DNA from: Nephrocerus scutellatus
Taxonomy: Eukaryota > Arthropoda > Insecta > Diptera > Pipunculidae
NCBI GenBank assembly: GCA_947095585.1
Contig: OX352765.1
Location: forward strand, 25,822,254-25,886,253
DNA: 64,000 nucleotides
Reading direction: 5' to 3'
Within the stretch, counting starts at the first letter, position 1; each line of letters starts with the position of its first letter. Under the pieces are notes generated by a model. It did no database searches. It was not told the origin of the DNA and saw only the letters and a program-made list of their open reading frames with translations. This document shows, piece by piece, positions 21,060-63,566 of this stretch. A program made the translations under genes and the position numbers.

Positions 21060-23760
21060 TAATAAGCATCATCAAATTTGGCTCTACAACCGGGGTTCGG
21101 TTGTGGCCTCCCGCAAAAATTCTCTCTACCGGTCCCGATTTTGAGCCGATGTCGACCAGTTTTGCATCCCTAAACTCTGAGCGTCCTGGTCTACGCCATC
21201 CTTCCAGCGTAGACTTGGCCATCCTCGCTCTCATGTTCCATAAAGACTTTCCGAGCAGGATCCTCTTCGCTAATGCGAGCTAGCTGTACTGGCAGTACTG
21301 GAGCCTACCGAGCTTAATTCTCTTCATGATGTCGACATCGCGATAACGCTCGTAGATCTCATCATTGTATGGGGTCTCCGGTATCGTCCTTCCTCACATA
21401 GAAGGCCAACAAACCTCCGTAAGGCTTTTCTCTCGAAGGAGTCTAAGAGGTCGGAATGCTTTTTGCTAAGCACCCAAGTCTCGGATGTCGGATCCATATG
21501 TAAGTACTGGTAGGACTATTGTATTAAACACCAGCAGCCAGTATGTTATGGTTGAATCCTAGATTTAAAGTGTCTTGACACAGACCGTGCGTGTATTTCT
21601 GGTACCATGCTGTTATAGGCTGAGGACTGTTCCTCTCGCCGTTACGTCAGAGACTCGGATTACTTGCTCCAACGACAGTTTCAAGAGGACGCAGGCCAGT
21701 CCATCCGCTTGTCGTATCCAGGTATAGATGTTGAATGGGCTTGATAGTGATCCGTATATTACTTTCTTTTACATAGTAAAAGGAAGCATAGTAATCATGA
21801 AAATTTTCGAACTCGGGATTTTTGCAGATTTACCCTTTACCGTATCTCCTGAGTCAGAAAAAGCTAAAATAAAAAAATCTTTGTCGGTCTATCTGTCTGT
21901 ATGTCTATATGTCTGTCTGTGCCCACTATACAGCCAAGACGGCTGAACTTTTCAGGATAAAAATTCATATTTAAGCTTTTTACATAAATTCTGAGGGGCC
22001 AGATGATTTTGACGCAAATCTGACAGCCCGTAGTGACAATTTACTTGGACAGTTTTTCGATTTTTTGCAAATAACTTAGGAGAAATCTGTTAGGTGCAAA
22101 AGAAATCTAAACAAAAAACCAAAAAAAAAATAAAAAAAAATTAAAAAAAAAAAATTTGAAAAAAAAAATTCATTGACACTAATATACATTTACTAATATT
22201 CTGGTCCCGTCCGTAAAAGAAAGTCGTGTTGTGCCCACACCTCCATATTTTAAATTTGGCTTATAACATTTAGTCATGGTCAACCTACATAGTCGTGTCA
22301 GTTTATTTGTGATGCCGAATTCTCTCATGGATTTATAAAGTTCTACTCTGGATATGCTATCATAGGCTGCTTTAAAGTCTATAAAAATATGAATATGAAT
22401 TTTGAAACTCTAGACATTTTTTCATCACCTGCCTAAGGGTGTAAATCTGATCATTTGTTGATTGCCCTGTGATGAAGCGACACTGGTATGGACCAATGAT
22501 AACTATAGCGTTTGGGGCTATCCTGTGTTGAAGGATAGAGGAGAAAATCTTATACTCCTTTATTATTTATGGGTCATAGGATGCCTCTTCGTCAGTCTTC
22601 TGGCATCGCTTCTTTCTACCATACTTGCACTATTATTTCATAAATTGCTTGGTGTATTGCGAGACCTTCAGTTTTATTCAGCTCCGCTGGGATACCATCT
22701 GATCCCGAGGCCTTATTATTTTTGAGCCGATTTATCGCTCTTCTAACTTCGTCTATGCTTGGTGGTGGCAGCATAGTGTGGTCTTCAGCAATTGTTGGAG
22801 CTTCCAATTCCTCAATTAGCTGGTCATTTATCAACTCATTAAAGTGCTCTTCCCGTAGCTCTAATATGCCTCTGATATCAGCGATCATGTTACCATCTTT
22901 GTCTTTGCAGTATGTGCAACGCGGTGTATATTGCGTCATATCGCTGAGTCTTTGGTAGAATTTCCGCGCATGGTGCGGTCCTTGCTTTGTACTGTTCTAG
23001 TTAACGGACGAGATTCTTCTCCCAGGCTACTTTCTTTCGTCGGCACTTTTCGCACTGTTTTTTCATATCTTCTCTTTATATTCATCTTCGCGTGCCCGTG
23101 TTCTATGAGATTATTGCATTGCTCGGTACGTAACATTCTTACGTTCAGTCGCTAGCTTACATTCGTCATCGAACCAGTCGTTTCGATCTCTACGATGGAG
23201 TCAGCAGTGCTAAGGACAGTATTCTTAAGTCGTGTCCATTTCTCTTCTACGCCCGACATCTCGGCCCCGGACTTACTATCCCAAAGTTGTTTCTGGTATC
23301 TTCGTTGCGAAGGCAGATCTGTTGACTCGAACCAGATTCGCGGATGCGCAGTCTTTCGTCATGATGCAATCCGCGCTCGGAGCACTATACCAACAAGATA
23401 TTGGTCCGAGTCGGCGTTTCGTCATCAGGTTCGGTTTGTGGCTACGGTCTATCAACACGTGGTCTATATGGTTTCGACTGGCTCCATCAGGAGATACCCA
23501 GGTAGCTTTGTGGATATTTTTACGCGCAAATCTTGTACTCGCATTATTTCTTGCTGCCATCTCTATGACTCCATTCTATGACTCCATTGTCATTAGTGTT
23601 CTCGTGTAAGCTACGGGTGCCAATGTACTGCCTGAATACTGGCTCCCTACCTATTTTTTTTACATTCATATGCCCCAGAATGATTTTTACATCATACTGA
23701 GGGCAGGCATGGAGTTTCCGTTCGACAGATTCAAAGAATATAAAATAAATAGACAATTTA
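21060..23760 (-). mobile_element. RTE-like non-LTR retrotransposon, decayed but nearly full pol
   Basis: Minus-strand copy running from the endonuclease to the 3' end. The EN part (about 23740-23280) reads CPQYDVKIILGHMNVK, RQYIGTRSLHENTNDNG, KNIHKATWVSPDGASRNHID and DRSHKPN. The RT part follows (22940-22600: SIDEVRRAINRLKNNKASG). The C-terminal RLRWAGH-type region lies at 21250-21450, and the 3' UTR ends in a TTGATGATG tract near 21060. Several frameshifts and an inserted element at about 21755-22245 disrupt it. The clade call (RTE, like 'craniofacial development protein 2-like' insect models) is from motif style. Confidence 0.8.
21755..22245. mobile_element. Nested non-coding insertion inside the RTE element
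   Basis: Interrupts the RT region: RTE sequence stops at about 21755 and resumes at about 22245. It carries a CTGTCTGTATG microsatellite-like tract, an A-rich block at 22120-22165, and ends in the segment AATATACATTTACTAATATTC ... CCCGTCCGTAAA shared with the tails of the SINE candidates at 63230 and 63990. Possibly a non-autonomous element of the same family. Confidence 0.5.
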
Positions 23761-24078
23761 ATTAAATTGAATGAAAATACATATGCAGCACATTTTATCA
23801 AAATAAAAAAACATAGTTTTTTTTATCATGGTTTTAAATTTAGAGAAAGTTATGTGTAAACATATTCATGTTTTCATCTAGCATTTACATACACAACTAA
23901 CTTTACCTCTTTTAAACATCACCACAATTATTAATTAAACCATTAAAATAAAACGCCAACTTTTTCTATGCATTCTCTTATTTAATTTAACAAAGCAACA
24001 ATAGTTTTCCTGAACTTATGTAGACGTAGAAATTGAATGAAGGTGATGTATTAGATTGATTCATATCAAGAAATATCC

Positions 24079-24574
24079 TTACTCTCTTTGCTTGCAGTCC
24101 AAATATAATTGAGCCTTTGTCTGTAAATACATACAAGATAGTTCGTTTTTATAAAAAATAAATATTTAATCTTAGTAAAACAAAGCCAACACCTGTACAT
24201 GTTCATGCGAAATTTTACAATTGCCTGGTTTGAGTGTCGAAAAGGTCAGCTGTACCTGTGCCACTGGATACACCACTGATCGAACGTTTTCCCCATTCGG
24301 GTGTAAAGGTCAACTGCAATTTAACAGTTATTTAAACATAAAAATAAGAAATAGATGCGAATTGCATTAAAGTAGGTGTTTACAAAAAAGTGCCTACTTG
24401 ACTGTTGTTTTCAATGGTTTTTTTTCAATAAAGGTAATTTTAATTTATTAAATTATTAATTGTAATTTTTTAATTTTATTCATTTTAATTTCAATATAGG
24501 ATTACCTGAGATTGAACCATTCCAAGTAGGACCAAAAGAACAAGAGACAAAAAGACTAACCGAATGGCAAACAT
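24079..24574 (-). pseudogene. Akh: Akh-A: adipokinetic hormone copy, hormone intact but tail frameshifted
   Basis: Three-exon Akh copy: exon 1 24574-24506, exon 2 24313-24193, exon 3 24120-24079. Exon 1 encodes an intact signal peptide (MFAIRLVFLSLVLLVLLGM) ending in the Gln that becomes pyroglutamate. Exon 2 opens with LTFTPEWGKR, so an octapeptide QLTFTPEW with Gly-amide donor and dibasic site is still encoded. A 1-nt insertion near 24225 and a 21-nt deletion near 24200 shift the frame, and a stop at 24217-24215 ends the precursor at 55 residues. The associated peptide with its cysteines is therefore lost. Exon 3 sequence and splice sites are preserved. TATA box and initiator are kept. Likely a decaying duplicate. 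If expressed and processed it could still yield a Glu7 AKH variant. Confidence 0.85.
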
Positions 24575-24620
24575 CGTATGGAACGTTGGTGCTTGAATGA
24601 CTGACGTGTATATGCTGGCG

Positions 24621-24630
24621 CTTTTATATA
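24621..24630 (-). promoter_or_regulatory. TATA box of Akh-A
   Basis: TATATAAAAG on the minus strand, about 26 bases upstream of a TCAGTC-type initiator, identical in layout to Akh-B. Confidence 0.6.
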
Positions 24631-24682
24631 TGTAGGTTGAAATGTTTTCGGCCTGAAACTTGTAGGGATTCTAAATATAATT

Positions 24683-27600
24683 GCAATTAGTTTCAGAATT
24701 CGTACTGATAAAATAAGAGACATTTCAAGTAATTGTTTCGCTTTACTTAGCGAAGATGATTGCAATTTCACACAAATATTCCCAGAAATAACGACGTCCA
24801 CAAAAAGCATCATAGAATAGATGAAAAAAAAAAACAACAAATAACGCATCAACTCAGCAACCACGTACACAATAAAACAACACAGTGGGACGGAAACCGT
24901 AAACAACATTAAAAACTTAAAAAGCAAACAAAAACATCCACCTATTAATATATTTAGAAAAGACAGCAACAAAATTAATAACATCCTCAATGATGTTATA
25001 GGTAAAGGAAATTATAACTTAAAAAATATTAATAAAAACAAAACAGTTTTAAATGTTAAAGATAGCAAAAGCTTAGACAAGGCAAAGTATTTGTTAAGCG
25101 AAACAAGGACAAGGACATACATACACAGAAAAAGACAAGAAACTTAATACGTTCATAATTAAAGGGTTGACGGTGGGCCACACCCCAGACGAAATCCTAA
25201 AAGAGCTAAAAGACAACCAGGAAGGCTTGAATTTTGTAAAATCTTTCAGGTATGTCACAACGCGTTCTTAACGCGAAAACATAATACTTCGACTTATATT
25301 GGTACAGCTATCTCCGGATAGCAAGATCGAAAACTTGAAGAACATTAGGTATGTCGGTGGCCACGTAGTGACCTTCGAAAAAATTAGACGAAGTGCTGTT
25401 CTGCAATGTCACCGATGTCAGAGATTCGGACATACTTCGTGCAATTGTAATATAGAATTCAGGTGCGTTAAGTGCCAAACGTTGCATAGTTCGGGAGAAT
25501 GCACGGTGCAGAAAGATGTAGGCAAGGAGCAGCAAAATACAATTCAAAAAACCAATTATTTTGAAAATTTCGTGAAAACGGGAGTTTTATTTGATGATAT
25601 GGCGAGATATAACATTGGCCTACATACGGTTTCGAATTCTCCAAATGAAAGTTTGGAAAATAAAGTAAACACTCTTGCCAAAGATGTAGCAGATCAGAAG
25701 GTGCAACTTAACACCATCTTGAATTTGCTGCAATGTCAGTGTTTAGATGTAGAGCACTCAAATTAGCTGCTTTAAATGGCAATTCCATAATTTCGGTCTC
25801 CAGAAGGGGCGACTTGCTGCGCTTTGTGGAAGACCACAGACCGGAGATACTCCTTCAAAACGAGACAAAGCTTAACGCAAGACATAAATTAGAATTTAAG
25901 AACTACGACTTAATACGCACGGACAGAAAAAACGCGATTCGCGGTGGTGGAACAGCTGTGCTGATCCGAAAACCACTAAGTTTCAAAACAATTTATAAGA
26001 GCGAGGTAGCGAACTTTAACTGCCTAGAGACTACTATTATTTCGCTGCCACTTCGAAAATATGCGCCGCCAGCAGATAATCAGTTTAACGTCGAGCCGAG
26101 AAATTATTCGAAACACTAGGATAAGATAGTTCAAATATTTATTTCATCCTAGCGGGAGATCTAAACGCGAAACATCAGGCTTGGCTGAACTCAACAGCGA
26201 ACGGAAGAGGCAGCTTTCTTAAGCGCTTTGTTGATGACAACCAGGTCAGATTTAAATTGAAATTATACAGCCTGGTTACACCAAGTTACCATTCCGGAAA
26301 CTCATATTTAGATTTGTGTATTGCAGATGCGCGACTGAAAATAGAAACGGTCCACGATAATAGGATCCCTCTGTTGCTGTATAATAGCGACCACAACGCG
26401 ATATAAGTATCGCCTCATTGCTGACGATTTCATATTCGCCCTCGCAAACCAACCAGAAATTCCTAAATTAAACTTTAGGAAGACCAACTAGAAGAGGTTT
26501 GAACAACAAGACACAAGAGAATGCAGAAATAGTATTTCCTCTTCCAAAATTCCTAACAATAGGAATCTGACGATCGAGGAGTGTGATTTCTGCATACAAA
26601 GGCTGAATTCGGTGATTCTGTTCGGCAGTCCCGACAATTAAATGCAAAAATTCTACGGAGTGTTATCTTAACCGAGAAATAGGTACGTTTCAGAGCTACA
26701 AGAGTTTTCTTGTCACACAAATCAACACAATACGACGGCAGCTTCCTGGTGTAGTGGGCAACAGTGATCTAATGAGACTCAAGTCCCTTTTAATGTGAAA
26801 ACCCTACTGGAACAACAATTCCGGAACAGTATCAACAATTATTGGAGTCACCGAGCAGAAAGTCTGATTCAATGACGAAGTTCCCGAAAATAAATCCACT
26901 TTATAAGCCTCGGAATTGAAGATACCAATTACTTTAGGGCATCTCATTTCTCGGGCGGGAATTGATGGCAGAACGACACCAATCGTTAACAACTACTTTG
27001 TTGTTGGCGAGGGTGTTGAGAAGGTAAATCTTATTGGATCTCATTTTAAAACAGTGCACCAAATAGAATGTCTCCAAATCAATTCTGCAGATATTGTGAA
27101 CGAGGAATTGCACAGATTTCGTAAGCAGCACAATTACTCGGATACTCTTGTACGCTTCTCAAATGACATGAAAGCGGACGAACTAACGCAAGACCAAACA
27201 AACAACTACTTCTCGACGTTGACAGAGGTTTCTTACATTTTCAGGAAACTGAACAACAAGCCCACGACATGTTTAGATAACATTCCCAATATCACGTTAA
27301 CACATCTTCCAGTCGAAATAATACGGAAATACTGCGTTATTTTTAATGACTTGCTCAATAATCACTACTTCCCGAGTTATTGGAAAACATCGAAGGTTTT
27401 TCTAATAATAATTTAGTTAAAATGATTATATGATGTCATAATGACGTCTCTATGATGCAGGTTGTGCTGAGGGCTTGGGACGCTGCCAACGAAATATCAG
27501 GGAATTGTTCTTTTTTGTTTTCCTTGTTATTTTTTTGTTAACTAGTTTTAAGTAGATTTAAGTAATCTTAAGTAAATATAAAATAAAAAAAATAATGTAT

Positions 27601-27872
27601 TAAAGGTTTTCTTTTTCCATTTTTCCTTTAAAATCAAAATTATTACAAATTAATAAAAGTAGTACCTTAAACTAAATATTGATAGATAAAAAAAACAAAT
27701 AGATATATAATATAATGAGAACCAAACTGGTCATTTATATAACTATACTAATATAGCTTGTAAGTTTCGTTATTTTCTTACTAGCCAATATATTAAAAAG
27801 TTAATTTTGGAATAAATAATTGATTTAAAAAAAGCAATTAGTTTCAGAATTCGTACTGATATAATAAGAGAC
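24683..27872 (+). mobile_element. Jockey-type LINE insertion flanked by 39-bp direct repeats
   Basis: Inserted about 60 bp upstream of the Akh-A TATA box. The flanking repeats, 24683-24721 and 27834-27872 (starting GCAATTAGTTTCAGAATTC), differ at one base and fit a long target-site duplication; the element is 24722-27833. ORF1 (about 24950-25766) has a FIIKGLTVGHTPDEIL region and zinc knuckles CHRCQRFGHTSC and CVKCQTLHSSGEC. ORF2 overlaps from about 25733 with an AP-like endonuclease (LLQNETKLNARH, GGGTAVLIRK, LAGDLNAKHQAW, SYLDLCIADARL). The RT start (LDNIPNITLTHLPVEIIRKY) breaks off at 27416, so most of the RT is deleted before the A-rich 3' UTR. Frameshifts make it inactive. Confidence 0.8.
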
Positions 27873-28489
27873 GAAATAGATAAGATAAGCTAAATGCGAC
27901 AAACTAATTAAACTGTACTTGACTTTTTTTTATTCCTGCAACTGACAAGGAATTAATTGTCTATTAGAATAACATTGGATAAATTAGGTTAAATAAAATA
28001 CAAAAGACAAACTATGATTCAAGATATTTTTTATTCATTTTGATATCTTACTTAACTTTTCACTTAAATTTAAATCTATGAATAATAACAATAAAAGTAT
28101 TGGCTCAACAATAGAGCCCGACGTATTCACATTCTCTAAATTTTATATTGGTTAACATTAATCAATACTTTCTATTCATGTTCTATTTTGTGTTTTATAT
28201 GCAAGTATTGGAGTACCCGGCGTTGCACGGGTGTATAATTTTACATTAATATCGCCCCTAACATCCCTTCCACTTCCATAGCGGTGATTTACCATCACTA
28301 TAGTGCCCAACATTGCACGGTTTTAAAATTTGACACAAATGTCGTTCCGCAACACCCCCCCCCCCCCCCACGAAGATCCAACTCTGATCCATCAAATGAG
28401 GATCGATGTTGGATGGCGAACTTAAAGAAGTTGCTGGTGTGCTTAGCAAAATCCACTTTTTTTTTGTTTTTATAATTCGCTTATAATAC

Positions 28490-31025
28490 TCGCCTATATG
28501 CTTGGCACAGCGTAGTCGTTAGGGAAGAAGAGCAGAAAAGAGGAGATGTCTATAAGCCTGTTGATCATAGTGATGTGGGAAGACAAAGGTTGGCAGAGTA
28601 TTCCACATACGTGTTGTAATAGGGAGAGAAATATTTCTTGCACCGGGCTAGAAAACCTTTCATTTCGCAGCATTTTTGGCGACAGTAAATCTGTGGTCAT
28701 TCCAACGAAGCTTGTCGTTAAGGCACATACCGAGAATTGCGAGATTTTCAGTTTCCTCGATGCAAGTGCCATTCATGGATTTGGGATTTAGGGTTTGCTT
28801 AGACGACAGAAGACAGCGTTGGGTTTTGGAAGCGTTAAATTCAAGTCGATTGTTTTCTCCCCATTTAGTTATGCTGTCTAGGTTAGAATTTAACGTGCTT
28901 AGCATACGTAGTTGCATGAGTTCCACATAAGAAGTCGAGGAACGTTCCTCAAACTTATATGAGAAGCTGAGAGTGCTGTCGTCAGCGAAAGAGTGAATTC
29001 GATTAGAAGTCACAGATAAGAGATCATTAATAAAAATGAGAAGGAGTATCGGGGAGAAAACAGAGCGCTTGGGAACGCCAGCATTTAAGTTATGTACTTT
29101 AGACTTGAAACCATCCAATACAACTTGAATTGAGCGTATGGGTGTTTTTCCATTTGTTAAAGAGCAAGGTTGATATGCCAATGTATACTTCAGAAATTCC
29201 ATATATTTTGTAGATTTTTAGATAAATCAATTTTTGTCAGTGAACATCAAATTATGAACTGCAGACACTCACAACCAATAAATAATACTCGATTTTTAAT
29301 CAAATTAAAACAATAATGTATGCAAAAAGAAAATAAAATAAATTATTTTACACACGTACGAAGAAATCACCACAAGCGGTCTAAAAGATAGTTTCTAATC
29401 CAGTGAAGCAGTTTAAAATCGACTCCATAAGCACGTGTTTTGGACAAATAAGCTTTATTTCAAACTCTGTCAAATGCCTTAGTAATATCGAGTGCAACAG
29501 CTTTGTCTTTTCCAAATTGATGCAAAGACCGGTTCCACTGTTCGGGGAGATATACCATCAGATCACCAGTAGAGTTGCTCACGAAATCTATTCTGCCGGT
29601 CACTAAGGATTTCGTTGGTTTTAAGATATTTCATGAGAAAGAGACGGCTCGCCTTTTTTAACTATGGGTTGGACAAAGGCCAAAAGACAAAAAAGAAAAG
29701 GCTTCTCGGGAAGAGCCCAGAAGACTAGGATAGATAGTAAAGCTTACGCAATGGTAACGCCAGCATGGAAGAACTATTGGGGAAATACGATCTTGCCCAG
29801 CGGATTTGTGAGTGTTGAGATCGTTTAAAATTCAACCAATTCCACGAGTACGAATGAAGATCTGTCCCATAGAATGTTCAATACTCGGAGGTGCAGGCGG
29901 CAACAATGCACAATCTGGAAGCGAGGAGCTAGCTGCAAAATGTGCAGCAAACAGATTGGCCTTTGTCTTTAGAGTTGACAACTGGAGTGTCATTATAAAT
30001 TAGCGTTAAAATTGATGACGAGGCTGTATTTTAAAACGTTTTTATTAGCTTGCTTTCGTGTATATCTGTCTGTGCGGGTGGGATTTTATAATTGATTTTA
30101 AACTAACTTGCCATTGAGCTAGAGACTTGAAACTTTAAACGTAGCTCACAACTGGATGAACATTTAAAATCATAAAAAAGACAACAAATTGCTTTAAACG
30201 TAGCTCAGAACTGGATGAAAATTTAAAATCATAAAAAAGACAACAAATTGCAAAAAAAAAATAATCCAACGCGAGTTTGCAATTTATTTCAGATCAAAGC
30301 TAACTACTACGAGTACGCACAATACTCGTTTTAAATTAAAAATGTTTTTTTATTTGATTATTTTCACGCATGACCAACAATGTTTACTTGTTTTGCTTTG
30401 TAAAACCGAAAGCATACCTCTCTAATCCTAGAAGCCTCTTTACAACTCGAGTCATATCATCCATCCTCCTTTCGTTTGACAGACTTATTTCCGGAGGGGA
30501 TAAAGTCTCTGATACAAACAAGGATGATGTTTGTGATTCCATCGTTTGAAATTGGTTCGGTTTTCCTCAGTAGGGTTTGCTTTGTAAAAACCAAAAGCAT
30601 ATATTGTGATTGCATCAGCAGCGGCATCCACATTGCTATCAAGAAGCAATAGCGACCATTTAATTCTCCCAAAGAAGTTGTTAAGGCCGTCCCAATTGGC
30701 TTTCTGGTATTGCCATACGGTTTCTTCTCTAACTGCGTGGTTTATTAACGAGAAATTAACAATGGTCAGACGAGCATAGAGGCGATAATACATTAACATT
30801 GACATTTGACAGTGCATCAAACTGGCTCTGAGTTGAAACATTGTCTAATATGGGGCTTCTGTACAAAAAGCAATAGTGTATGTACCATTACTCTGAGCCA
30901 TATGAAATTAAATTACGGATTGGAACATTGACTGAATTTAGGCAAAAGCTAAAATGTAACATCACTACTGACATAAATTGTCGAGAAAAAAAAGAAGACC
31001 CAGGCAGATTTAATTCCGAGGTATT
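28490..31025 (-). mobile_element. Jockey-superfamily LINE in duplication unit A
   Basis: Minus-strand remnant. 30841-30485 covers the EN/RT linker (VWQYQKANWDGLNNFFGRIK). 29990-29600 holds the start of RT. 29202-28660 reads VVLDGFKSKVHNLNAGVPKR, a FADD box (HSFADDSTL) and WGENNRLEFNASKTQ, and the end is at about 28490. Many stops. The same element, with the same 5' and 3' limits, flanks Akh-B at 33355-36450, so it was probably carried in the segmental duplication rather than inserted twice. Confidence 0.75.
30133..30250. repeat. 59-bp tandem duplication
   Basis: Two head-to-tail units, 30133-30191 and 30192-30250, each starting CTTTAAACGTAGCTCA and ending CAACAAATTG, with two visible mismatches. 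Lies in a repeat-family-R2-like stretch that interrupts the LINE. Confidence 0.85.
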
Positions 31026-31026
31026 T

Positions 31027-31142
31027 ATGTTCTACATGTATATATTTTTTCATAGATTGGTGCTTGTTTTAATTATCATTTATACTAATTTTGTAGACAT
31101 TATTATTACATTGACATTACACTTTCCATACCATTTGATTTT
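31027..31142. repeat. 116-bp junction segment shared with 42928-43043
   Basis: Begins ATGTTCTACATGTATATAT and ends CATTTGATTTTC, near-identical to 42928-43043 in direct orientation. It marks the join between duplication units A and B and probably derives from the original sequence between Akh and Ras64B. Confidence 0.75.
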
Positions 31143-31337
31143 CTCTATGACTCCATTGTCATTAGTGCTCTCCTGTAAGCTACGGGTGCCAATGTACTGC
31201 CTGAATACTGGCTCCCTACCTATTTTTACATTCATATGCCCCAGAATGATTTTTACATCATACTGAGGGCAGGCATGGAGTACCCGTTCGACAGATTTAA
31301 AGAATATAAAATAAATAGAGAATTTAAAATAGCCCAA
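31143..31337 (-). mobile_element. RTE-like LINE endonuclease fragment
   Basis: Minus strand reads FKSVERVLHACPQYDVKII and RQYIGTRSLQESTNDNG, then is cut at 31143. Same fragment as 23575-23780 in duplication unit A, so carried along with the Akh duplication. Confidence 0.75.
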
Positions 31338-31653
31338 TTAAATTGAAGGAAAATATGTATGCATCCCATTTTATCAAAATAAAAAAACATAGTTTTTTTG
31401 ATCATGGTTTTAAATTTAGAGAAAGTTTTGAGTAAACATATTGATGTTTTCATCTAGCATTTACATACACAACTAACTTTACCTCTTTTAAACATCACCA
31501 CAATTATTAATTAAACTATTAAAATAAAACGCTAACTTTTTTATTCATTCTCTTATTTAATTTAACAAAGCAACAATAATTTTGCTGAACTTATGCCGAC
31601 GTAGAAATTGAATGAATGTGATGTATTAGATTGCTTCATATCAAGAAATATCC

Positions 31654-32176
31654 TTACTCTCTTTGCTTGCAGTCCAAATATAATTGAGCCTTTGTCTGTA
31701 AATACATACAAGATAGTTCGTTTTTATAAAAAATAAATATTTGATCTAAATAAAGCAAAGCCAATATACCTGTACAAATCGAAATATTTCTAAAAGCATT
31801 TCATGCGAAGTTTTACAATTGCCTGTTTGTGTGTCGAAAAGGCCAGCTATACCTGTGCCACTGGAAACACCACTGATCGAACGTTTTCCCCAGTCGGGTG
31901 TAAAGGTCAACTGCAATTTAACAGTTATTTAAGCATAAAAACAAGTAATATATGAGTATTTCATTAAAGTAGGTGCTAACATTGAGCGCCTACTAGACTG
32001 TTGTTTCCAACGTTTTTATCCTTTTTCAATAAAGGAAATTATAAATTTATTAAATTAATAATTGTAATTTTTAAATTTAATTTATTTTATTTTCAATATA
32101 TGATTACCTGAGATTGAACCATTCCAAGAAGGACCAAAAGAACAAGAGACAAAAAGACTGACCGAATGGCAAACAT
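31654..32176 (-). CDS. Akh: Akh-B: intact adipokinetic hormone precursor
   Basis: AKH is the neurohormone of corpora cardiaca cells that mobilises fat and sugar through a GPCR. Three exons with canonical splice sites: 32176-32108, 31910-31770 and 31695-31654, giving 83 residues (Drosophila about 79, from memory). Signal peptide MFAIRSVFLSLVLLVLLGM precedes the Gln at the exon 1 end. Exon 2 starts LTFTPDWGKR: mature pyroGlu-LTFTPDW, amidated from Gly and cut at Lys-Arg. The remainder is the AKH-associated peptide GNCKTSHEMLLEIFRFVQ plus exon 3 TKAQLYLDCKQRE, with the two cysteines used for precursor dimers in the family. Threonine at position 5 differs from the QLTFSPDW I recall for Drosophila. 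A TATA box (32227-32236) and TCAGTC initiator (32210-32205) precede it. This is the only copy with every functional element, so most likely the working gene. Confidence 0.95.
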
Positions 32177-32226
32177 CTTACTTATGGAACGTTGGTGCTT
32201 GAATGACTGACGTGTATATGCTGGCG

Positions 32227-32236
32227 CTTTTATATA
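32227..32236 (-). promoter_or_regulatory. TATA box of Akh-B
   Basis: TATATAAAAG on the minus strand, with an arthropod-type TCAGTC initiator 26 bases downstream (32210-32205) and about 30 bases of leader before the ATG at 32176. Confidence 0.7.
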
Positions 32237-33049
32237 GGTTGAAATGTTTTCGGTTTGAAACTTGTAGGGATTCTAAAGATAATTGAAATAAGTTTCAGAA
32301 TTCCTACTGATATAATGAGAGACGAAAATAGATAAGAAAAACTAAAAGGGGCAGACTAATTAAACTGAAATTGACTTTGTATTATTGGACAAGAAATTTG
32401 TTGTCTATTCGAATAAGTAAATATTGGATAAATTAGGTAAAATAAAACAAAAAGAAGTACTATGATTTAACTTACTTAACTTTTGACTTAAATTTTAACT
32501 TATGAGTAATAACAATAAAAGTGTCAGCTCAACAATACTCGTAGAGCCCGACGTATTCACATTGTCTAAATTTTATATTGGTTAACATTAGTCCATATTT
32601 TCTATTCATGTTCTAGTACATATATGTTTTATATATAACTAGTTGCACGGTTGTAAAATTGTACATTAATAATGCCTCCAACATCCCTTTGACTTACCCC
32701 CTCCCCATAGCGGTGATTTACCATCACTATAGTGTCCGGCATTGCACGGTTTTAAAATTTGAAACAAATATCGCTCGGCATCCCCCACTCACGAATACCC
32801 CTACCCATAGACTGTTCAACTCAGCGTCTCCGAAACCTATAGAATGGACACTAATAGCCAAGCCCGCTTTGCCAAAGCAATATAGCAATAGTTCTATTGT
32901 CAGATGGTCCGAGTAACTATCATGCGCAAAACAGGAATTCTTGCAGGATTTTGACGAAGTTTGAGAAATGAAATTTTGTGCCACTTACCCTCTCCATATC
33001 TACGTTTTACCATTAGTTAGGCGATGAAAAAATTAGAAGAGTCTTAAAA

Positions 33050-33310
33050 CTCACTATGTCTATAGACTTTATAGCCGCCTATGATAGTATAGCCAGAGTA
33101 GAACTTTATAAAGACATAAGGGAACAAACTAACACTACTATGTAGAACGTAGAAATGTAGGTGACTAAATGTTATGAGGCAAGTAAAGATGACTATCAAG
33201 CCCATTTCACATCTATAACGGGCTTCGAAAAGGGGATCGACTGGGCTGTGTCTTCTTAACATATGGCCTCAAACCTACCCAGACGATATTGATCTTATTG
33301 CAAGCAACCC
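33050..33310 (+). mobile_element. RTE-like LINE fragment
   Basis: Plus-strand RT scrap corresponding to the FVDFKAAYDS to AYADD section (GACTTTATAGCCGCCTATGA ... CGGGCTTCGAAAAGGGGATC), with internal deletions. Absent from the matching place in duplication unit A. Confidence 0.7.
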
Positions 33311-33354
33311 AAGATCTGTCATCCCGCAAAATCCAATTTTTTTTTTAATTCGCG

Positions 33355-36300
33355 CTCGCTTAAAGGGGTTCGCTCCCTTATAATGCTCGCCTGTATGCTT
33401 GGTACAGCGTGGGTGTTAAGGAAGAAGAGGAGAAAAGAGGAGATGTCTAGGAGCTTGTGTTTTGAATGCCTGTGGATCATAGTAATGTGGGAAGACAGAG
33501 CTTGCCAGAGAATTGTAAGGCTGAAGAATGAATCCCTGAACTTAACTGTACGTCCGAGGATGGGCTTGAGGGTAAACTGATGAGCGTTTAGAGTGCCACG
33601 AATATTACGGAAATTAAGTACCGCTGGTGGAAGAATCGATAAAACAGTGACAAGCAGGAAACGTTCCAGCGTTGTTCAAGCGAATGTTTTCTGATGAATA
33701 TTTTTGTCACCGTTAGTTTAATCGCATGGTTTTGTATTCTATATAGCTGATGCAGTGCAGTTTAGGCGCAATAGACCAGATATGACAATTGTACTCATGT
33801 TTAGGGTGAATAAAAGCCTTGTAGATAGTAGCCAGATCAGAGGGAGAAAAATATTTCTTGTACCGGGCTAAACATTTCGCTGCATTTTTGGCGACCGTAA
33901 ATCTGTGGTCATTCCAACGAAGCTTTTCGTTAACGCACATACCGAAAATTGCGAGATTTTCAGTTTCCTCGATGCTAATGCCATTCATCGATAATGGCAT
34001 AAGATTTAGGATTCGCTTGGACGACAGAAGACGGCATTGGGGTTTGGAAGCGTTAAACTCTAGTCGATAGTTTTCTCCCCATTTTATAATGCTGTTCAGA
34101 TCAGAATTTAACGTGCTTCACATACGTAGTTGGTTGAGTTCCACATGAGAAGTGGAGGGACGTTCTTCAAACTTATATGAGAAGCTGAGGGTGCTGTCGT
34201 CAGCGAAATTCGGGGAACGCCAGCATTTAAGTTTGTACTTTAGACTTCAAACCGTCCAATACAACTTGAATTGACCGGTCTAAAAGGTAGCTTCTAGCCC
34301 AGTGAAGCAGTTTATCATCAACTCCATAACCACGCATTATGGACAAAAGAGCTAAATGTCAAACTCTGTCAAATGCCTTAGAAATATCGAGTGCAGCAGC
34401 TTTGTTTTTTCCAAATTGATGCAAAGACCGGTTCCACTGTTCAGTGAGATATACCATCAGATTACCAGTAGAACGTTACTCACGAAATCTATTCTGCCGG
34501 TCACTAAGGATTTCGTTGGTTTCAAGATATTTCATGAGCTGAAAATTGATCCACGTTTCCATGACCTTGGAAGAATGTATGTAAGTGCTATGGGTCGGTA
34601 CGTAGAAGGGGCCGACGGCTCGCCTTTTTTAGGTATGGGCTGGACAAAGGCTGTTTTCAAACTTCTCGGGAAGAGCCCAGAAGAACAGGATATATGGAAA
34701 AGCTTACGCAATGGTAACGCCAGCATGGAAGAACACCTCTTAATGGGGAAATACGATCTTGCCCAGCGGAAATGTGAGTGTTGAGATCGTTTAAAATTCT
34801 ACCAATTGCACGAGTACGAATGAAGATCTGTCCCATAGAGTGTTCAATACTCGGAGATGCAGGCGGAAACAATGCACAATCTGGAAGCGTGGAGCTAGCT
34901 TCAAAATGTGCAGCAAACAGATTGGCCTTTGTCTTTAGAATTGATAACTGGAGTGTCATTATAAATGAGCGTTGGAATTGACGACGAGGCTATATTTTTG
35001 ATTCTTTTCACGAATGACCAAAAATGATTACTACCTTTGGGACATTGTAGTATTTTTTGCCTCTATTTTTTTTCGTAGGCGAATTTGACTCACCGAAGAT
35101 TAGCATTGCAATCATTTCTGGCTCGTTTGAAATTGGTTCGGTTTTCCTTAGTAGGGTTTGCTTTGTAAAATCGAAAGCATACCTCTCTAATCCTAGAAGA
35201 CTCTTTACAGCTCGAGTCATATCATCCATCGTCATGATGTTGACGTTGACGCGGCATCCACGTTGCTATCACGAAAAAATAGCGACCAGTTAATTCTCCC
35301 ACAGAAGTTGTTAAAGCCGTCCCAATTGGCTTTCTCGTATCGCCATACTGTTTTTGGGAGTTTTTTCTCTAACTGCGTGGTTTATTAACGAGAAATTAGC
35401 TGATACAATAGAATGGTCAGATATTCTAGTAGGCTTATTTACAAGCTGAGTAATGTGACTAAACTCAGCGAACATCTAAACACACCTTCGGGTGTTGTCT
35501 GCCCAGAATGACAAAGCCACTCAGAATTGTGTACGTTTAAATCGCCCGCAATAACGATTTCAGGTAACGATACTTGTATTTTGTGAAAATTCTTAAAATT
35601 GAATCAGACAGTGCATCAAACTCGCTCTGAGTTGAAACAGTGTCTAATTTGGGGCTTCTGTATAAACAGCAGTAGTGTATGTACATTTACTCTGAGGCAT
35701 ATGAAATTAAATTCCGGAGTGGAAAATTTGCATTAGGCAAAAGCTGAAACGTAACATCACTACTGACATAAATTGTCGAGGAGAAAATAATGACACCAAG
35801 CTATACCCAGGCAGATTTAATTCCGAGGTATCGGAATTATCAAATACCTGAGTTTCACGGTAACCGACCGATTCCACTAGACACAATTCAACTGGACACA
35901 ATTCCACTGGCACAATTCAACTTGGCACAATTCCACTGGGGAACAATTTAACTTGCACAATTTAACTTGCACAATTCAACTTGTAAAGTTACACGGAACC
36001 GCAAATACAGAAATACACACATTAATAATTTATTTGCGTTGGCATGGTTCTAATTGTACAAAATAACAATCGCGCTCGCGATTTACCACATAAATGCGTT
36101 TAATATTTTATTTGTGTAGGCGTGGTAATGAAATATTTACTTATTGTTTTTTTAAAATTAACATTAACTTAACATTAGTTAACTTTTGTTATAATTAAAC
36201 GAATTCAACTTGCATAATTTTAGTCTTTGATAATCAAACGCATTTAGGGTGGTAAATCGCGCGCGCGAATTTGATTATCAAAAAGTTAAATTGTGCAAGT

Positions 36301-36450
36301 TGAATTGTGCAAGTTGAATTGTGCCAAGTTAAATTGTGCCCAGTGGAATTGTGCCAAGTTGAATTGTGCCAGTTAAATTGTGTCCAGTGGAATTGTGTCT
36401 AGTGGAATTGGCCTAGAATCGAGTTTCACTCAGTACCAGAATTGCTGATC
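33355..36450 (-). mobile_element. Jockey-superfamily LINE in duplication unit B
   Basis: Counterpart of 28490-31025, retaining more 5' sequence. On the minus strand: EN motif ILVLSET (interrupted by a Foldback-type insertion) continuing ETQVFDNSDTSELNLPGYS, RT start PIPKKGEPSAPSTYRPIAL near 34640, ISAGQDRISP near 34800, and the C-terminal end CLARYKKYFSPSDLATIYKA near 33830. Many stops and frameshifts. Confidence 0.75.
35850..36429. mobile_element. Foldback-type element with 9-bp target-site duplication
   Basis: Element 35859-36420 (562 bp) is flanked by GAGTTTCAC on both sides (35850-35858 and 36421-36429). Both arms are built of short subrepeats of the type CACAATTCAACTTGG / CACAATTCCACTGG in inverted orientation. 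They continue inward to a second inverted match (GCGATTTACCAC..TAAATGCGTTT at 36080-36105 and 36240-36262). The middle is AT-rich and non-coding. Long subrepeat-containing inverted termini plus a 9-bp duplication are characteristic of Foldback elements. It is inserted within the endonuclease coding part of the surrounding LINE, and the host frame reads across when one copy of the 9-mer is ignored, which supports the boundaries. Confidence 0.8.
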
Positions 36451-36638
36451 TATGGACATGTACATATGTAAATACAGCGACTCGGACCACGATTTTTTGT
36501 GGTAAAAGGACAACTACGAATAAATCCAAATCCAAAAATAACTATTGTTCTTTCCAATTCCAAATTACCGGAATATGCCCGATTTCCCACATTATTATTT
36601 GTATTGTAGATCTGCTCTCATAAAATATTATCCATTGC

Positions 36639-38137
36639 ATGAAAGTTTTAAGACATGACAATCAGATGATTCCGATATGGGAGCAATTTTTCAATACGGC
36701 ATCAGACTTAGAAGTCGAAGAAGGTTATATTGAACGAGATCTGGATCAATTAGAATGGCAACATGCAGCTGGGACCACCTCAAGAAAATCTACCAATTGG
36801 AAATACTCCTCAAGTGACTTCAAATTTCGACTGGAAAGCAAATATACAGCTACGTTATACACCTGCTGAGTTGGCAACTGGAAAAGACTGGATGAGCAAA
36901 TCATTGGGGAATGGAAGAAATTTCTGACGCAAACAATGATCTTTTATTAATACAACCACAGCAACTGCAACTAATGAGATGACCCGCGAGGCTCTGGAAT
37001 CAAATACGCAGTTACTTTTCATTGTTAATGGTACTGCAGGAACGCGGAAAAGTCATACCATCGCAGCTATATCAGCATCGATGCCACATGAGGAAATCTT
37101 CAGAGCAGCGTTTACTGCTAAAGCTGCTTATCTAATCCGTGGTGAAACTTTACATGCCAAGTTTAAAATTCCTGTTGCAAGAGGTATGTCTGCTAAATTA
37201 GCTGAACTTCAAGCTTCAAGAACAATTAACTTTGAAAGTCTTTGAGAGGTAATTTTTTCAGAAAAGGAATCCGTTCAAGGTTTTGAGGAGTCATTTGATG
37301 TTGCTACCTACATATTATCAACTAATGAAGCAGCAAACAAATATAAATAATATCCAATTACAAAAGCTCAATGTGTCTATTACTGTTCTCAATGCTGTAA
37401 ATAATCCTCATAATTTTAAGTCAATAACGGTAGACCATTTCAGATAGGTTTGCAGCAATCACTGTATCTAGCTGTTGGAGCCGAAATAATCTTGATTTCA
37501 AACATCAGCACTGCATATGGTCTCACAAATGGAGCTAAAGGCAAAGTCGTTTATATAGTTTATTCCAAACGGCCGAACTTGTCTCTACCCGACTTCGTTG
37601 TAGTTCACTTTTCACAATATAGTGGGCCTGCGTTCTTTCAAGATGCTGCTACACCAAACCATCCGTACTACAATTTTCTTCCAATTCCAAGCATATCGGT
37701 AATGTCAGAAGATACCAGAGGGAGCCGAACTCAGTTTCCAATTCGTCTGGCTTATGCTATGACCATTTGGAAATGCCAAGGTGACACTTTGGATAAAACG
37801 GTAGCAGATTTTGGACATAGGGAAGTAGCTGGCCTTACTTTTGTTGCATTCTCTCAAGTGAGACACATCTGTCACCAAGCAATAATGCCCTTCGCTTTTG
37901 TACGAGCACAAAAAATTGCTAGCGCGGATTCTTTAGTTTTACGAAGGATTGAAGAATAAAGACTTTCTGCCGAACCAAAAACTTAACTTTTCATTGATGC
38001 ATGGTGATGTACTGCAACTTCGTCAAGATGATACATTTTACAATCTTCGCGACATTTCGTTTAAAGATAATGATGGCAAAGCATACGCAAAAAAGAAACA
38101 CAAATTTAAAACAATCGGAGTAATTGATTACGACTAA
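36639..38137 (+). pseudogene. PIF1-family helicase remnant (Helitron/Helentron-type, decayed)
   Basis: Broken SF1 helicase reading frames. 36639-36869 matches the region upstream of the helicase core. 36979-37245 contains Walker A as GTAGTRKSHT, with Arg replacing the invariant Gly before Lys. After a stop the frame has ILSTNEAANKYN, and from 37450 VGAEIILISNISTAYGLTNG, then LPDFVVVHF, FPIRLAYAMTIWKCQGDTLD and GLTFVAFSQVRH, the C-terminal motifs of PIF1-like helicases. The Walker B section is missing, so there is an internal deletion between the Walker A region and ILSTNEA. Such genes in insects usually belong to Helitron-like transposons, but no Rep domain or Helitron terminus was recognised here. 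Not functional. Confidence 0.75.
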
Positions 38138-38757
38138 TATGATATATTTCGTGTAGAACGACTTTTGAAGAATCATAATGGCTAACGTTTTATATTTGGA
38201 CATCATTATCTGCGGCACTTTCCACGAGTCAATGCGATGATACTATCTGAAAGAAGTTGTTCGAGTGCCTTTGTACGAAGTAGTACCAATAAAATTGGTC
38301 ATTGGATGTTGTTGGGTCCTCGACCCTACGGTATTTTACAAAGTACGTCCCATTGATTGTACCTTTCTAAGGCAAAAAATACCTATCTGACTATCCGACA
38401 TGCACAAAAAGAAATTTCAAGCGCTTAAGATATCCAAAACCTATGGTTTAAGTTAATTTCGATTAATACCTTTATTTTGAATAGTCTATAATTATTCTAC
38501 CTTTTTTATCTTAGCCCCACGATTTTGTTCTAGATTGGATGATAAGATTCAAGGACGACTACATCGTTTCCAGCGAAAAAAACAGAACATAAAGTAACAA
38601 TGAAAACATTGCAAACATTGACTACAGGTGTGAGTGAACAAAAATATTTTAGTTTATCTTATCTATTTTCGTCTCTTATTATATCAGTACGAATTCTGAA
38701 ACTAATTTCAATTATCTTTAGAACCCCTACAACTTTTAGGCCGAAAACATATCAACC

Positions 38758-38780
38758 TATATATATACAAGCCAGTCATT
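38758..38780 (+). promoter_or_regulatory. Altered Akh-C core promoter
   Basis: The TATATAAAAG and GCGCCAGCATATACACG spacer of Akh-A and Akh-B are replaced by TATATATATACAAGC. The distance from the TATA-like start to CAGTC shrinks from about 27 to 15 bases, so normal TATA-initiator spacing is lost. Confidence 0.55.
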
Positions 38781-38801
38781 CAAGCACCAACGTTCCATAA
38801 G

Positions 38802-39273
38802 ATGTTTGCCATTAGGTCAGTCTTTTTGTCTCTTGTTCTTTTGGTTTTTCTTGGAATGGTTCAATCTCAGGTAATCCGATATGGTAAATAAAATAAATAA
38901 AATTAAAATTAATAATTTAATAAATTTAAAATTTCCTTTAATGAAAAAGGATAAAACTGTTAATGAAATACGCATCTATTTCTTGTTTTTATGCTTAAAT
39001 AACTGTTAAATTGCAGTTGACCTTTACACCCTACTGGGTAATACGTTCGAACAGTGGTGTATCCAGTAGCACAGGTACTGCTGGCCTTTCCGACACACAA
39101 ACAGGCAATTGTAAAACTTCGCATGAAATGCTTTTAGAATTATTTCGATTTGTACAGGTATATTGGCTTTGCTTTATTAAGATCAAATATTTAATTTTTA
39201 TAAAAACGAACTATCTTGTATGTATTTACAGACAAAGGCTCAATTATATTTGGACTGCAAGCAAAGAAAGTAA
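38802..39273 (+). CDS. Akh-C: Akh paralogue with mutated hormone and processing site
   Basis: Complete three-exon structure on the plus strand: 38802-38870, 39017-39157 and 39232-39273, with the same exon lengths (69, 141, 42) and splice phases as Akh-B and an uninterrupted 83-residue frame. Signal peptide MFAIRSVFLSLVLLVFLGM is intact, as is the associated peptide with both cysteines (GNCKTSHEMLLELFRFVQ, TKAQLYLDCKQRK). The hormone is changed: exon 2 starts LTFTPYWVIR, so Asp7 became Tyr and Gly-Lys-Arg became Val-Ile-Arg. That removes the amide donor and the dibasic cleavage site, so no amidated AKH can be made by the usual route. The core promoter is also altered. Either a young pseudogene caught before any frame break, or a copy kept for its associated peptide; the first is more likely. 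Confidence 0.8.
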
Positions 39274-39524
39274 GGATATTTCTTGATATGAAGCAATCTA
39301 ATACATCACATTCATTCAATTTCTACGTCGGCATAAGTTCAGCAAAATTATTGTTGCTTTGTTATATTAAATAAGAGAATGCATAGAAAAAGTGGGCGTT
39401 TTATTTTAGCGGTTTAATTAATAATTGTGATGATGTTTAAAATAAGTAAAGTTAGTTGTGTATGTAAACATAAATATAACTTTCTCTAAATTTAAAACCA
39501 TGATTAAAAATACTTAATTTTGAT

Positions 39525-39835
39525 ATTTACATGTAGAACATAATAATTTTCAATACATAAAAAATCTTGGTGTATGCTTGTTTGTTAAATCAAACTTAAA
39601 CAAAAAAATTGTTGAAATTTATGTAACTTAACCTGCACATCATTTTTTGGACGGTGCTAGGGCAATAAGTGTAACAAATTAAGAAATACAGATTTTCTAA
39701 ATAATTTTTCTAAACAAAAAACAATTTTTTTAACACAATACATTATGTGTTCTCAATGTCAACAGCGTAACGATAATCGTTTTGTTCCCAATATTTCCAT
39801 TTATGTATAGCATTTTATTTAATAAAAACAAAACA
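39525..39835 (+). repeat. Arm 1 of a ~310-bp inverted repeat (partner 42590-42935)
   Basis: Continues the 3' flank of Akh-C: ACATGTAGAACATAATAATT, CAATACATAAAAAATCTTGG, GTGCTAGGGCAATAA, CATTATGTGTTCTCAATGTC and CGTAACGATAATCGTTTTG, each found reverse-complemented at 42935-42590. Shows that Akh-C carried original intergenic sequence with it. Confidence 0.8.
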
Positions 39836-39849
39836 ACCCATAAAAATTA

Positions 39850-40590
39850 CAATTTTTCATGTAAATTCTCTAATAGGAGATGGTTATGTGTTAAAATTTG
39901 AAGAAAACTGGGCTAATTTTTAAAAAATTTACATGGACACCACACGGGTTTCAGGGCCCGATCACTCAAACAAACTTACAAAAATTTTTGTCCATCAGTG
40001 ATACACATGTTTTTAAAATTTGAAGAAAATCGAGCTAATTTTTAAAAAATTTATATGGGCACCCCTCGGGCCTCACGGGTTAATTTTTTTAAAAAAAATT
40101 TTGGGGCCCAATGACCCTGTGGCCCGGGGTCTCCAAAATTTTTACAAAAAGTGTTTTGCATCGGAGATAAAAAAAAAATCGGGTTAAAAAAATTTTTTTT
40201 TACAAAAAATGTTGTCTATCGGAGATACACATGTGTATTAAATTTGAAGATAATCGGGTTAATTTTTTTAAGGAAAGTTATGGGGCCCCACGAACCCGGG
40301 CCTGGGGTCTCCAAAATTTTTACAAAAAGTGTTGTATATCAGAGATACACATGTGTGTAAAATTTTAAGAAAATCGAGTAAAATTTTGTAAAATATTTGT
40401 ATGGGAGCCCGAGGCCCGTGGGGCACAAAATTGTAATAGATAGTGTTGTCATCGGAGATATGCATGTGTGCAAAATTTCAATAAAATAGGACTTTAGGAA
40501 GTGAGATAAAACTTGATCGCAAGATTCCATGACAAACCCACAAACAAACAAACACACGGGCAAGCGAAGTTAATATAGAGAATTTAATAA
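39850..40590 (-). repeat. Tandem block of repeat family R1 monomers
   Basis: About six degenerate monomers of roughly 110-125 bp. Each has AAAATTTTTACAAAAAGTGT, TCGGAGATACACATGTGT, AAATTTGAAGAAAATCGGG and a GC-rich GGGCCC-type part. Copies of the ACACATG box occur near 40002, 40224, 40347 and 40460. The block ends with the family's TTGATCGCAAGATTCC, CAAACAAACAAACAC and GAAGTTAATATAGAG terminus. It lies exactly between Akh-C and Akh-D. Confidence 0.75.
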
Positions 40591-40599
40591 GAAATATAT

Positions 40600-40870
40600 G
40601 CGTATGTGCTAACATTGAGCGCTTACTAGACTGTTCTTTCCAACGGGGTAATCCTTTTTCAATAAAGGAAATTATTAATTCTAATTTTATTTATTTTATT
40701 TTCAATATAGGATAACCTGAGATTGAACCATTCCAAGAAGGATCAAAACATCTTATGGAACGTTGGTGATTGAATGACTGGCGTGTATATGCTGGCGCTT
40801 TTATATAGGTTGAAATGTATTCGGTCTGAAATTTGTATATAATGAGAGACGAACATAGATAAGATAAACT
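40600..40870 (-). pseudogene. Akh-D: exon-1 remnant of a fourth Akh copy
   Basis: Contains the Akh promoter (TATATAAAAG at 40807-40798), the leader, and exon 1 reduced to 35 nt (40751-40717) by a 34-nt deletion in the signal peptide, so the frame reads ATG TTT TGA. The exon end GTTCAATCTCAG survives next to a GTTATC donor. Part of intron 1, with CTTTTTCAATAAAGG and the GCTTACTAGACTG box, follows down to 40600, where the R1 repeat block begins; exons 2 and 3 are gone. Its 5' flank (40857-41050) matches that of Akh-C (38490-38640) in inverted orientation, so C and D arose as an inverted pair. Confidence 0.8.
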
Positions 40871-41029
40871 AAAATATTTTTGTTCACTCACTCCTGTAGT
40901 CAATGTTTCCAATGTTTCATTGGTACATTTTTTACTGGAAGCGATGTAGTCGTCGTTTAATCTTATCGTCCAATCTAGAACAACATCGTGGGACTATGAT
41001 AAGAAAGGTAGAATAATTATAGACAATTC

Positions 41030-41110
41030 ATATCTATGGACATGTACATATGTAAATGCACCGACTCGGACCTCCTAGCAGCGTTCGATAGGAAAGTCTT
41101 TCAGATAATT
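41030..41110 (+). mobile_element. Small RTE-like LINE scrap
   Basis: GGACCTCCTAGCAGCGTTCG and GGAAAGTCTT match the SDLLAAFERKVL-coding part of the RTE element at 1720-1755. The preceding CTATGGACATGTACATATG also occurs at 36452. Confidence 0.6.
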
Positions 41111-42330: not shown

Positions 42331-42589
42331 CACGCGTACTTATTAGTCGCCCATTATATTCTATAGGAAAGGTAAAATAAAATCACTCAACTTCTTGAAG
42401 AGATTATTTATTTCTGATTAAAAAAATACATAAATATTTTCATTTATTATTTATAAAGTATGAAGTAAATGTATTACCATTATGTATAAACAAAAATTTT
42501 AACATAAAACTTAAACATTTAAATAAAGTCGTTAATATATTTTTGGTAGAAACCTAGAGGGCTAACGTATAATAAAACGTTTTTCTTTT

Positions 42590-42935
42590 TTTTATTAAAT
42601 TAAATGCTATACATAAATTGAAACATTGATAAAAGCAAGAAAAAATACTTTAATTTTAAAATTGTAATAACTATGAGTAGTTTTTACAACAAAACGATTA
42701 TCGTTACGTTGTTGACATTGAGAACACATAATGTATTGTATTAAAAAAATGGTTTGTTTAGAAAAATTATTTAGAATATGTTTATTTTTTAATTTGTTAT
42801 TGCCCTAGCACCGTCCTGAAGTACGAGGTGCAGGGGAAGTTACATAAATTTCAACAATTTTTTTTGTTTAAGTTTGATTTAACAAACAAGCATACACCAA
42901 GATTTTTTATGTATTGAAAATTATTATGTTCTACA
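42590..42935 (-). repeat. Arm 2 of the inverted repeat (partner 39525-39835)
   Basis: Reverse complement of 39525-39835 with small indels. It runs directly into 42928-43043, which is the segment found again at 31027-31142. Interpreted as the original Akh-to-Ras64B intergenic DNA. Confidence 0.8.
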
Positions 42936-43043
42936 TGTATATATTTTTTCATAAATTGGTGTTTGTTTTAATTGTCATTTATACTAATTTTGTAGATAGT
43001 ATTATTACATTGACATTGCACTTTCCATAACATTTGATTTTCA

Positions 43044-48200: not shown

Positions 48201-48879
48201 ATTTCTTTTTCTTCGCAATCGTATGTGATGACGTTGACAAGTTTATTTGTTTACTTCTACCACTTTTTACTTATATTTTCTTGCTGAAGTACGACGATTT
48301 AAAAGAAAATAAAGAAGTTCCACGCCCGAAACACTTCACCTTTACCCAAAAATCATCATTCAAGATTCAACTTAGATCAGCTATAGCCGATGGACAATGA
48401 CGGCTGATAAACGAATTGTGACGTTTTGCTGTAAACGTCAAATTGATATAACAAGAACCGAGTAGAAATTGTACAAAAGTATTTGTATTAAAATTTTATC
48501 TACATAAGTAGAACTTGTTTGTTTATACCATGCAATTATAACAAAAAAAATGATGAATTATAATCATTAAACTTAAATATATAATATCTAAAATTAGTTA
48601 ATGCTCTTTTGCTATAAAATTGTTAAGTACAAAACATAGCAGAGATATTTTCAATCAGTGCTGCCTTTTGATGTTTTAATTTCACTTTTTCAGAAAGTAT
48701 GAAACTTATTTGAGAATTTTAAAAGAAAAAAGGAGTCCAAATTAATGTAGAAAAATTAAAAATAAACATATTTTTCAATCGATAAAAGAAACAGTAAAAT
48801 ACTATTAACAATAATAATACTTGGCGGAACAGACAGTTGTGACCTAGGGGAGACAATCTAAGGTTTTTTTCGCGACGGC

Positions 48880-49830: not shown

Positions 49831-49904
49831 CTGTTTTGGATTGTACGAATTATACCAGAACCCAACAACTAAATTAAAATATACCAATATTTTTATCAGC
49901 TTTT

Positions 49905-49990
49905 AAATTCTCTTTATTGACTTCGCATGCCCGTGTGTCGTTGTCTGGCTGGCTGGTGGAATCTTGTGATCAATTTTTAACCTTCTTAAA
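49905..49990 (+). repeat. Scrap of repeat family R1 in triplicated unit 1
   Basis: GACTTCGCATGCCCGTGTGT, GGTGGAATCTTGTGATCAA and CTTCTTAAACTT, the terminus of the R1 family, copied again at 52132-52217. Confidence 0.6.
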
Positions 49991-52654: not shown

Positions 52655-52664
52655 ATTTCTTTTT

Positions 52665-63540: not shown

Positions 63541-63566
63541 CTGAATAAGTAAGGAAAAGAGAGAGA

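Follow-up and report, generated by a model that had tools for sequence, protein, structure and literature searches.

A fourfold duplicated adipokinetic hormone locus in the fly Nephrocerus scutellatus, with one copy that looks fully working

INTRODUCTION

Adipokinetic hormone (AKH) is a glucagon-like, fat-mobilizing hormone of insects. Here, we describe a locus of the pipunculid fly Nephrocerus scutellatus at which four Akh-homologous stretches, copies A to D, lie side by side within a 64,000-nucleotide stretch of DNA (assembly GCA_947095585.1, contig OX352765.1, positions 25,822,254 to 25,886,253 of the forward strand), referred to below as the window; coordinates are positions in it. Sets of two Akh genes have been described in flies before. 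In tsetse (Glossina), Phote-HrTH and Glomo-AKH come from two Akh-family genes of a cyclorrhaphan fly and differ at residue 7, the residue that also separates copies A and B described here (PMC7136388).

Position 5 of AKH is described as typically Thr or Ser (PMC5855764), and a 2020 survey of dipteran AKHs reports the pELTFTP form last in Asiloidea and pELTFSP from Syrphoidea onward (PMC7136388). The C-terminal amide is reported to be essential for the related ACP receptor; for AKH receptors, the same source cites mixed results (PMC6838013).

RESULTS

Four Akh copies at one locus

When the window was searched with copy B as query, from ATG to stop, A was matched at 86.5% identity (24574-24079), C at 84.7% (38802-39273), and D at 79.5% over 171 aligned bases (40748-40602). 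E values ranged from 0 to 2e-42, and the copies are therefore homologous and not alike by chance; two further matches, of 27 and 39 bases, were chance-like. The four copies span 23.6-40.9 kb of the window, and the homology of D, its promoter included, extends to 40837. The whole assembly (613,391,848 bases, or 613 Mb, in nine contigs; the window is C5:25822254-25886253) was searched with B plus its promoter, which returned seven matches: A, B, C, D, and three short pieces. Two of the pieces, of 59 and 38 bases, lie in the window, where they extend the flanks upstream of A and D; the third, of 73 bases, lies on another chromosome (C2). All four matches longer than 100 bases are copies A to D. 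A Pfam family search of the assembly listed exon 2 of B as its only match, and it counts fewer copies than the DNA search because A and C are missing from its list. The fourfold duplication of Akh is real and, in the searches made, specific to this locus, in keeping with the four recognizable copies of a first-pass annotation. The copies and the promoter of B are as follows.

24079..24574, minus strand: copy A, exons 24574-24506, 24313-24193, and 24120-24079; QLTFTPEW followed by GKR; PF06377
31654..32176, minus strand: copy B, intact Akh, exons 32176-32108, 31910-31770, and 31695-31654; PF06377
32205..32236, minus strand: core promoter of B, TATATAAAAG, then TCAGTC 26 bases on, read by eye
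38802..39273, plus strand: copy C, inverted, exons 38802-38870, 39017-39157, and 39232-39273; open frame of 83 amino acids; PF06377
40602..40837, minus strand: copy D, a remnant with promoter, exon 1 with an internal deletion, and part of intron 1

The plus strand thus carries only C, and the minus strand the other three copies. The first-pass annotation had placed A and B as direct copies and C and D as inverted ones; this holds for A, B, and C, while D shares the strand of A and B and is inverted only relative to C.

Copy B is intact, as had been proposed. Exons of 69/141/42 nucleotides yield a product of 83 amino acids in which the octapeptide QLTFTPDW is followed by GKR, and its PF06377 score is 58.9 bits (curated cut-off, 22.9 bits). 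The core-promoter motifs were identified by eye only, and the names used here, such as TATA-like box, are those that we presume to apply.

Copy A has exons of 69/121/42 nucleotides, with the splice sites kept, the signal region whole, and a whole octapeptide, QLTFTPEW, followed by GKR. One extra base in exon 2 shifts the frame and brings in a stop once 55 residues have been read, 22 nucleotides ahead of the last junction, and beyond this frameshift a further 23-column alignment gap is found near the end of exon 2. The 55 amino acids up to the stop score 26.0 bits against PF06377 (cut-off, 22.9). Owing to the early stop, A lacks the conserved two-cysteine tail (C55 and C79) that is present in B and C; the spacing from TATA box to start is the same as in B. 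An intact hormone with a frameshifted tail had been claimed for A: the octapeptide is indeed whole and the frame broken, and the hormone is not that of B.

Copy C shares the exon lengths of B (69/141/42), as had been stated, retains its GT and AG sites, and is open over 83 codons, with a PF06377 score of 38.1 bits (cut-off, 22.9). It reads QLTFTPYW and then VIR instead of GKR, so that the amide-donor Gly and the Lys of the dibasic site are both lost. The description of C as an open frame with an altered hormone was accurate, and loss of the processing signal is to be added to it. Between TATA-like box and start, 12 bases are missing in C, a spacing kept in A, B, and D. The octapeptide pattern Q-L-T-F-x-P-x-W at the end of the signal region occurs in A, B, and C. 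Copy D, correctly called an exon-1 remnant, keeps the start codon, but its internal deletion leaves Met-Phe-stop, and its homology ends in intron 1, without exon 2. Because C has no Gly-Lys cleavage and amidation site, we file it as a relic and not as a hormone gene; from their sequences, both C and D look dead.

Branch rates among the copies

A three-way alignment of A, B, and C gave 222 coding and 588 non-coding columns. Substitutions private to B occupy 2 of the coding and 20 of the non-coding columns (one-sided Fisher p 0.035), compared with 6/222 and 23/588 for A (p 0.28) and 11/222 and 29/588 for C (p 0.59). By the Nei-Gojobori count, B and C differ with dN 0.054 and dS 0.073. In simulations using the substitution rate of C and the five gaps that separate it from A and B in non-coding sequence, the frame of C stayed open by chance in 15% of trials (44% with gaps ignored), and its open frame is therefore no evidence of function. 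Disabling changes are found in D (deletion), A (frameshift), and C (loss of GKR); the rate of C fits loss of constraint, and that of A gives the p of 0.28 above. In the manner of intron-bearing pseudogenes, A and C keep their introns and have flanking DNA duplicated with them. Since both introns are kept in A, B, and C, these copies are DNA duplicates and not retrocopies. Only B appears to be both intact and under any constraint, the sign of which is weak, and it is the one copy that looks fully working.

Gene conversion between copies is not claimed: the longest runs gave permutation p values of 0.045, 0.19, and 0.28, and the longest identical stretches gave 0.023, 0.030, and 0.039, none of these values being corrected for the six tests made. 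For every pair of copies, the longest identical stretch falls within alignment columns 612-791 (intron 2, exon 3, and 3' region; mostly non-coding), or about 31562-31741 in B, these coordinates being approximate. Constraint, conversion, or chance may account for it (p 0.02-0.04 each, uncorrected).

Origin of the copies

The interval 23575-31024 aligns collinearly with 31144-35831 in eight pieces that are 76-90% identical. In each interval Akh is followed by a block, which in the first interval contains a reverse-transcriptase domain; this identifies the two as a tandem duplication. Further structure was found in the flanks.

23575..31143: tandem unit 1, which contains copy A together with a reverse-transcriptase block (RVT_1 at 28660-29217), collinear with 31144-35831
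31144..35831: tandem unit 2, holding B and a block matching that of unit 1 by DNA similarity
24722..27835, plus strand: retroelement of endonuclease-reverse transcriptase type (PF14529 at 26125-26403)
36490..38651, plus strand: truncated PIF1-helicase (Helitron-like) element joined to C, with piecewise matches to copies on other chromosomes
42586..43042: flank segment X, near a Ras-like gene, parts of which recur at 31025-31143 (beside B) and 39529-39831 (beside C)

The genome search found no further match to segment X besides the partial copies beside B and C; because such copies occur only there, the ancestral Akh would most naturally have lain near X. The same upstream flank is found, in opposite orientations, at C and at D, and the last ~170 bases of the helicase element recur beside D (40861-41030). 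The first ~170 bases of this flank have matches on C2, C1, and C4 and, weakly, at the far end of C5. On C2 and C1, the piece belongs to a PIF1-helicase element that runs past the point at which Akh starts in C and D. The term Helitron-like is drawn from the helicase.

From these observations, we infer the order of events, as well as expression and the peptide actually made. Segmental duplication of Akh in a transposon-rich region, with B retained and the other copies decaying, is the reading that we prefer, with a probability of roughly 0.78. Local segmental duplication would have multiplied a single Akh gene within a transposon-rich interval beside the Ras-like gene. A and B would stem from one tandem duplication, of a unit that measured ~4.5 kb without the later insertion in A, and a second, rearranged pair, joined to the truncated helicase element, would have given C and D in opposite orientations. 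Copy B would have kept the job, with its 83-residue precursor predicted to be cleaved at GKR and amidated to pQLTFTPDW-amide. In A, the frameshift would have removed the precursor tail and a retroelement would have been gained near the promoter; the losses in C would be the site of cleavage and amidation and the promoter spacing, and in D most of the gene.

Several points weigh against this reading. The octapeptide and GKR of A are whole, and A may therefore not be dead. The constraint test on B is weak, being one-sided, one of three, and based on 252 coding bases. Columns 555-595 were dropped from the alignment, as A was misaligned there, and a change was assigned to whichever of the three copies stood alone against the other two, with no close outgroup. 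The event count in the simulation of C is rough: of the five gaps, two are only one column from each other, and one occurs in D as well.

The strongest competitor is that A is a second working Akh gene, with a 55-residue precursor that lacks the usual cysteine-bearing tail but still yields pQLTFTPEW-amide; two neighboring genes would then supply two ligands. Besides its whole signal region and processing site, its splice sites and its start spacing, position 7 is reported to be where tested dipteran receptors tolerate changes best (PMC5855764), Ser or Asn at this position is described as tolerated by a mosquito receptor (PMC6838013), and the tail peptide, APRP, has been called functionally orphan (PMC8733639). 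Nevertheless, the frame is broken and the tail gapped, coding changes are not clearly fewer than non-coding ones, and the 3.1-kb retroelement, flanked by 39-base direct repeats with one mismatch, sits ~120 bp upstream of the predicted start. Glu7 may also not be neutral, as a 100-fold lower activity is reported for fly AKH, with Asp7, in a grasshopper that has Asn7 in its own AKH (PMC8733639), and a Glu7 AKH was neither present among 44 database relatives nor found in the literature searched. On balance, we regard a working A as unlikely, although only A may leave room for a second ligand.

A little less probable still is that A and B are both expressed, which would add two new fly AKHs, pQLTFTPDW-amide and pQLTFTPEW-amide, with A a natural tail-less Akh gene. 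If true, the precursor-related tail would be dispensable, and hormone and tail separable in evolution. The AKH-AP mutant fly is reported to be a double mutant (PMC7940354); the need for the orphan tail peptide, APRP, could be judged from A as a natural experiment.

Capture by the Helitron-like element, which would have moved Akh and made C and D by transposition, seems improbable to us. In both C and D, the junction is with one and the same helicase-element sequence and falls at almost the same base; in copies on other chromosomes, this sequence continues beyond the junction. Yet the window was not found to contain the far end of this element, part of flank X, which otherwise occurs only at the Akh locus, is carried by C as well, and no Akh copy longer than 100 bases exists elsewhere in the assembly. 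Segmental duplication accounts for C more readily than does its neofunctionalization for an unamidated or differently cut product: although 83 codons are open, splice sites are kept, Tyr7 occurs in a natural fly AKH, Volpe-CC (PMC9573411), and the amide requirement is described as less strict in some AKH receptors (PMC6838013), its coding rate equals its non-coding rate, an open frame is unsurprising (0.15), and Gly-Lys-Arg and the promoter spacing are gone, so that we give this very little credence. Equally hard to credit is an assembly artefact in which haplotypes of one Akh locus were left side by side: 99%-identical neighbors elsewhere in the window (47831-52668 and 62812-64000) could be artefacts, but A and B, in tandem, differ at 81/1137 bases and B and C at 65/881 (A and C, 79/829), flanks differ, the retroelement is in A only, an inversion is present, and nine contigs for 613 Mb suggest long reads. 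Haplotype error is an unlikely source of the copies.

Neighboring sequence

The 13-base sequence CTATGACTCCATT forms a tandem repeat at 23563-23588 that opens unit 1, whose homology runs from 23575, and this 13-base sequence recurs at the opening of unit 2 (31145), possibly as a duplication footprint. The repeat at 23563-23588 lies within what looks like an RTE-type retroelement. At 35868-36411, beside the helicase remnant, is a fold-back element, an inverted repeat with arms of ~116 bases and 93% identity built of short CACAATTCAACTTG-like repeats.

Ras and protein-kinase domains were found by Pfam scans in the flanks of the locus, in genes presumed from the Drosophila map to be Ras64B and Myt1. 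A 2.23-kb tandem repeat at 47831-52668, 99.2% identical and in ~2.2 copies, reflects either a recent tandem duplication or an assembly artefact. It holds three copies of the first coding exon of a Ras-like gene, which we assume to be Ras64B-like (starts at 48200, 50427, and 52654, minus strand); the outermost reads GKSTI and the other two GKSAI. At 62812-64000, two 434-base stretches are 99% identical, the second reaching the window end.

DISCUSSION

The first-pass annotation had proposed a peptide-hormone expansion with sequence diversification. Fourfold copies with different fates were confirmed; an expansion with diversification is mostly unsupported, as only B is intact with a sign of constraint, and all that would survive of a diversified family is the two possible ligands of B and A. 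Overall, the locus is of interest as the natural history of one hormone gene, but it provides no evidence for a hormone family with four working members. AKH levels are reported to be similar in flies carrying one akh copy and in flies carrying three (Noyes et al., as cited in PMC8733639), and a locus where extra Akh copies arose and decayed would fit weak selection on dosage.

The locus predicts an octapeptide, QLTFTPDW-amide, that was not found in the literature searched; searches for LTFTPDW, LTFTPEW, and LTFTPYW, and for the three-letter forms of the first two, found none of them. Thr5 with Asp7 was likewise not found in those parts of the 2020 dipteran survey that were searched, which do not include its Table 1 (PMC7136388). 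A profile search returned 44 relatives at E up to 0.01, of which 38 carry QLTFSPDW, two each QLTFSPNW and QLTFSPGW, and one each QLTSSPDW and QLTFTSSW, the last in Megaselia; neither QLTFTPDW nor QLTFTPEW occurs among the 44. In a 41-row tree of the neighboring Scf (calumenin) protein, whose best matches include the hover fly Eupeodes (74%), the window protein lies within the split of hover flies and schizophorans (100/99, starred), sister to 22 rows including schizophorans (fork 91/67, not starred). If this single-gene tree holds, the combination of Thr5 and Pro6 in this fly would break with the pattern of pELTFSP from Syrphoidea onward.

Compared with the tsetse pair, in which both peptides were verified by mass spectrometry (PMC7136388), only one gene is intact here, and its peptide is predicted from the sequence. 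From other cyclorrhaphan Akh genes the locus differs in its octapeptide, QLTFSPDW being the predominant one among the 44 relatives, although Thr5 itself is shared with Megaselia. Copy C has Tyr7, as does Volpe-CC of hover flies and a robber fly (PMC9573411), but unlike that peptide lacks an amidation and cleavage site. With Drosophila, Lucilia, and Bactrocera, the locus shares the precursor plan of signal region, octapeptide, GKR, and cysteine-bearing tail, and exon 1 ends with the first hormone residue, as reported for Drosophila (PMC8733639).

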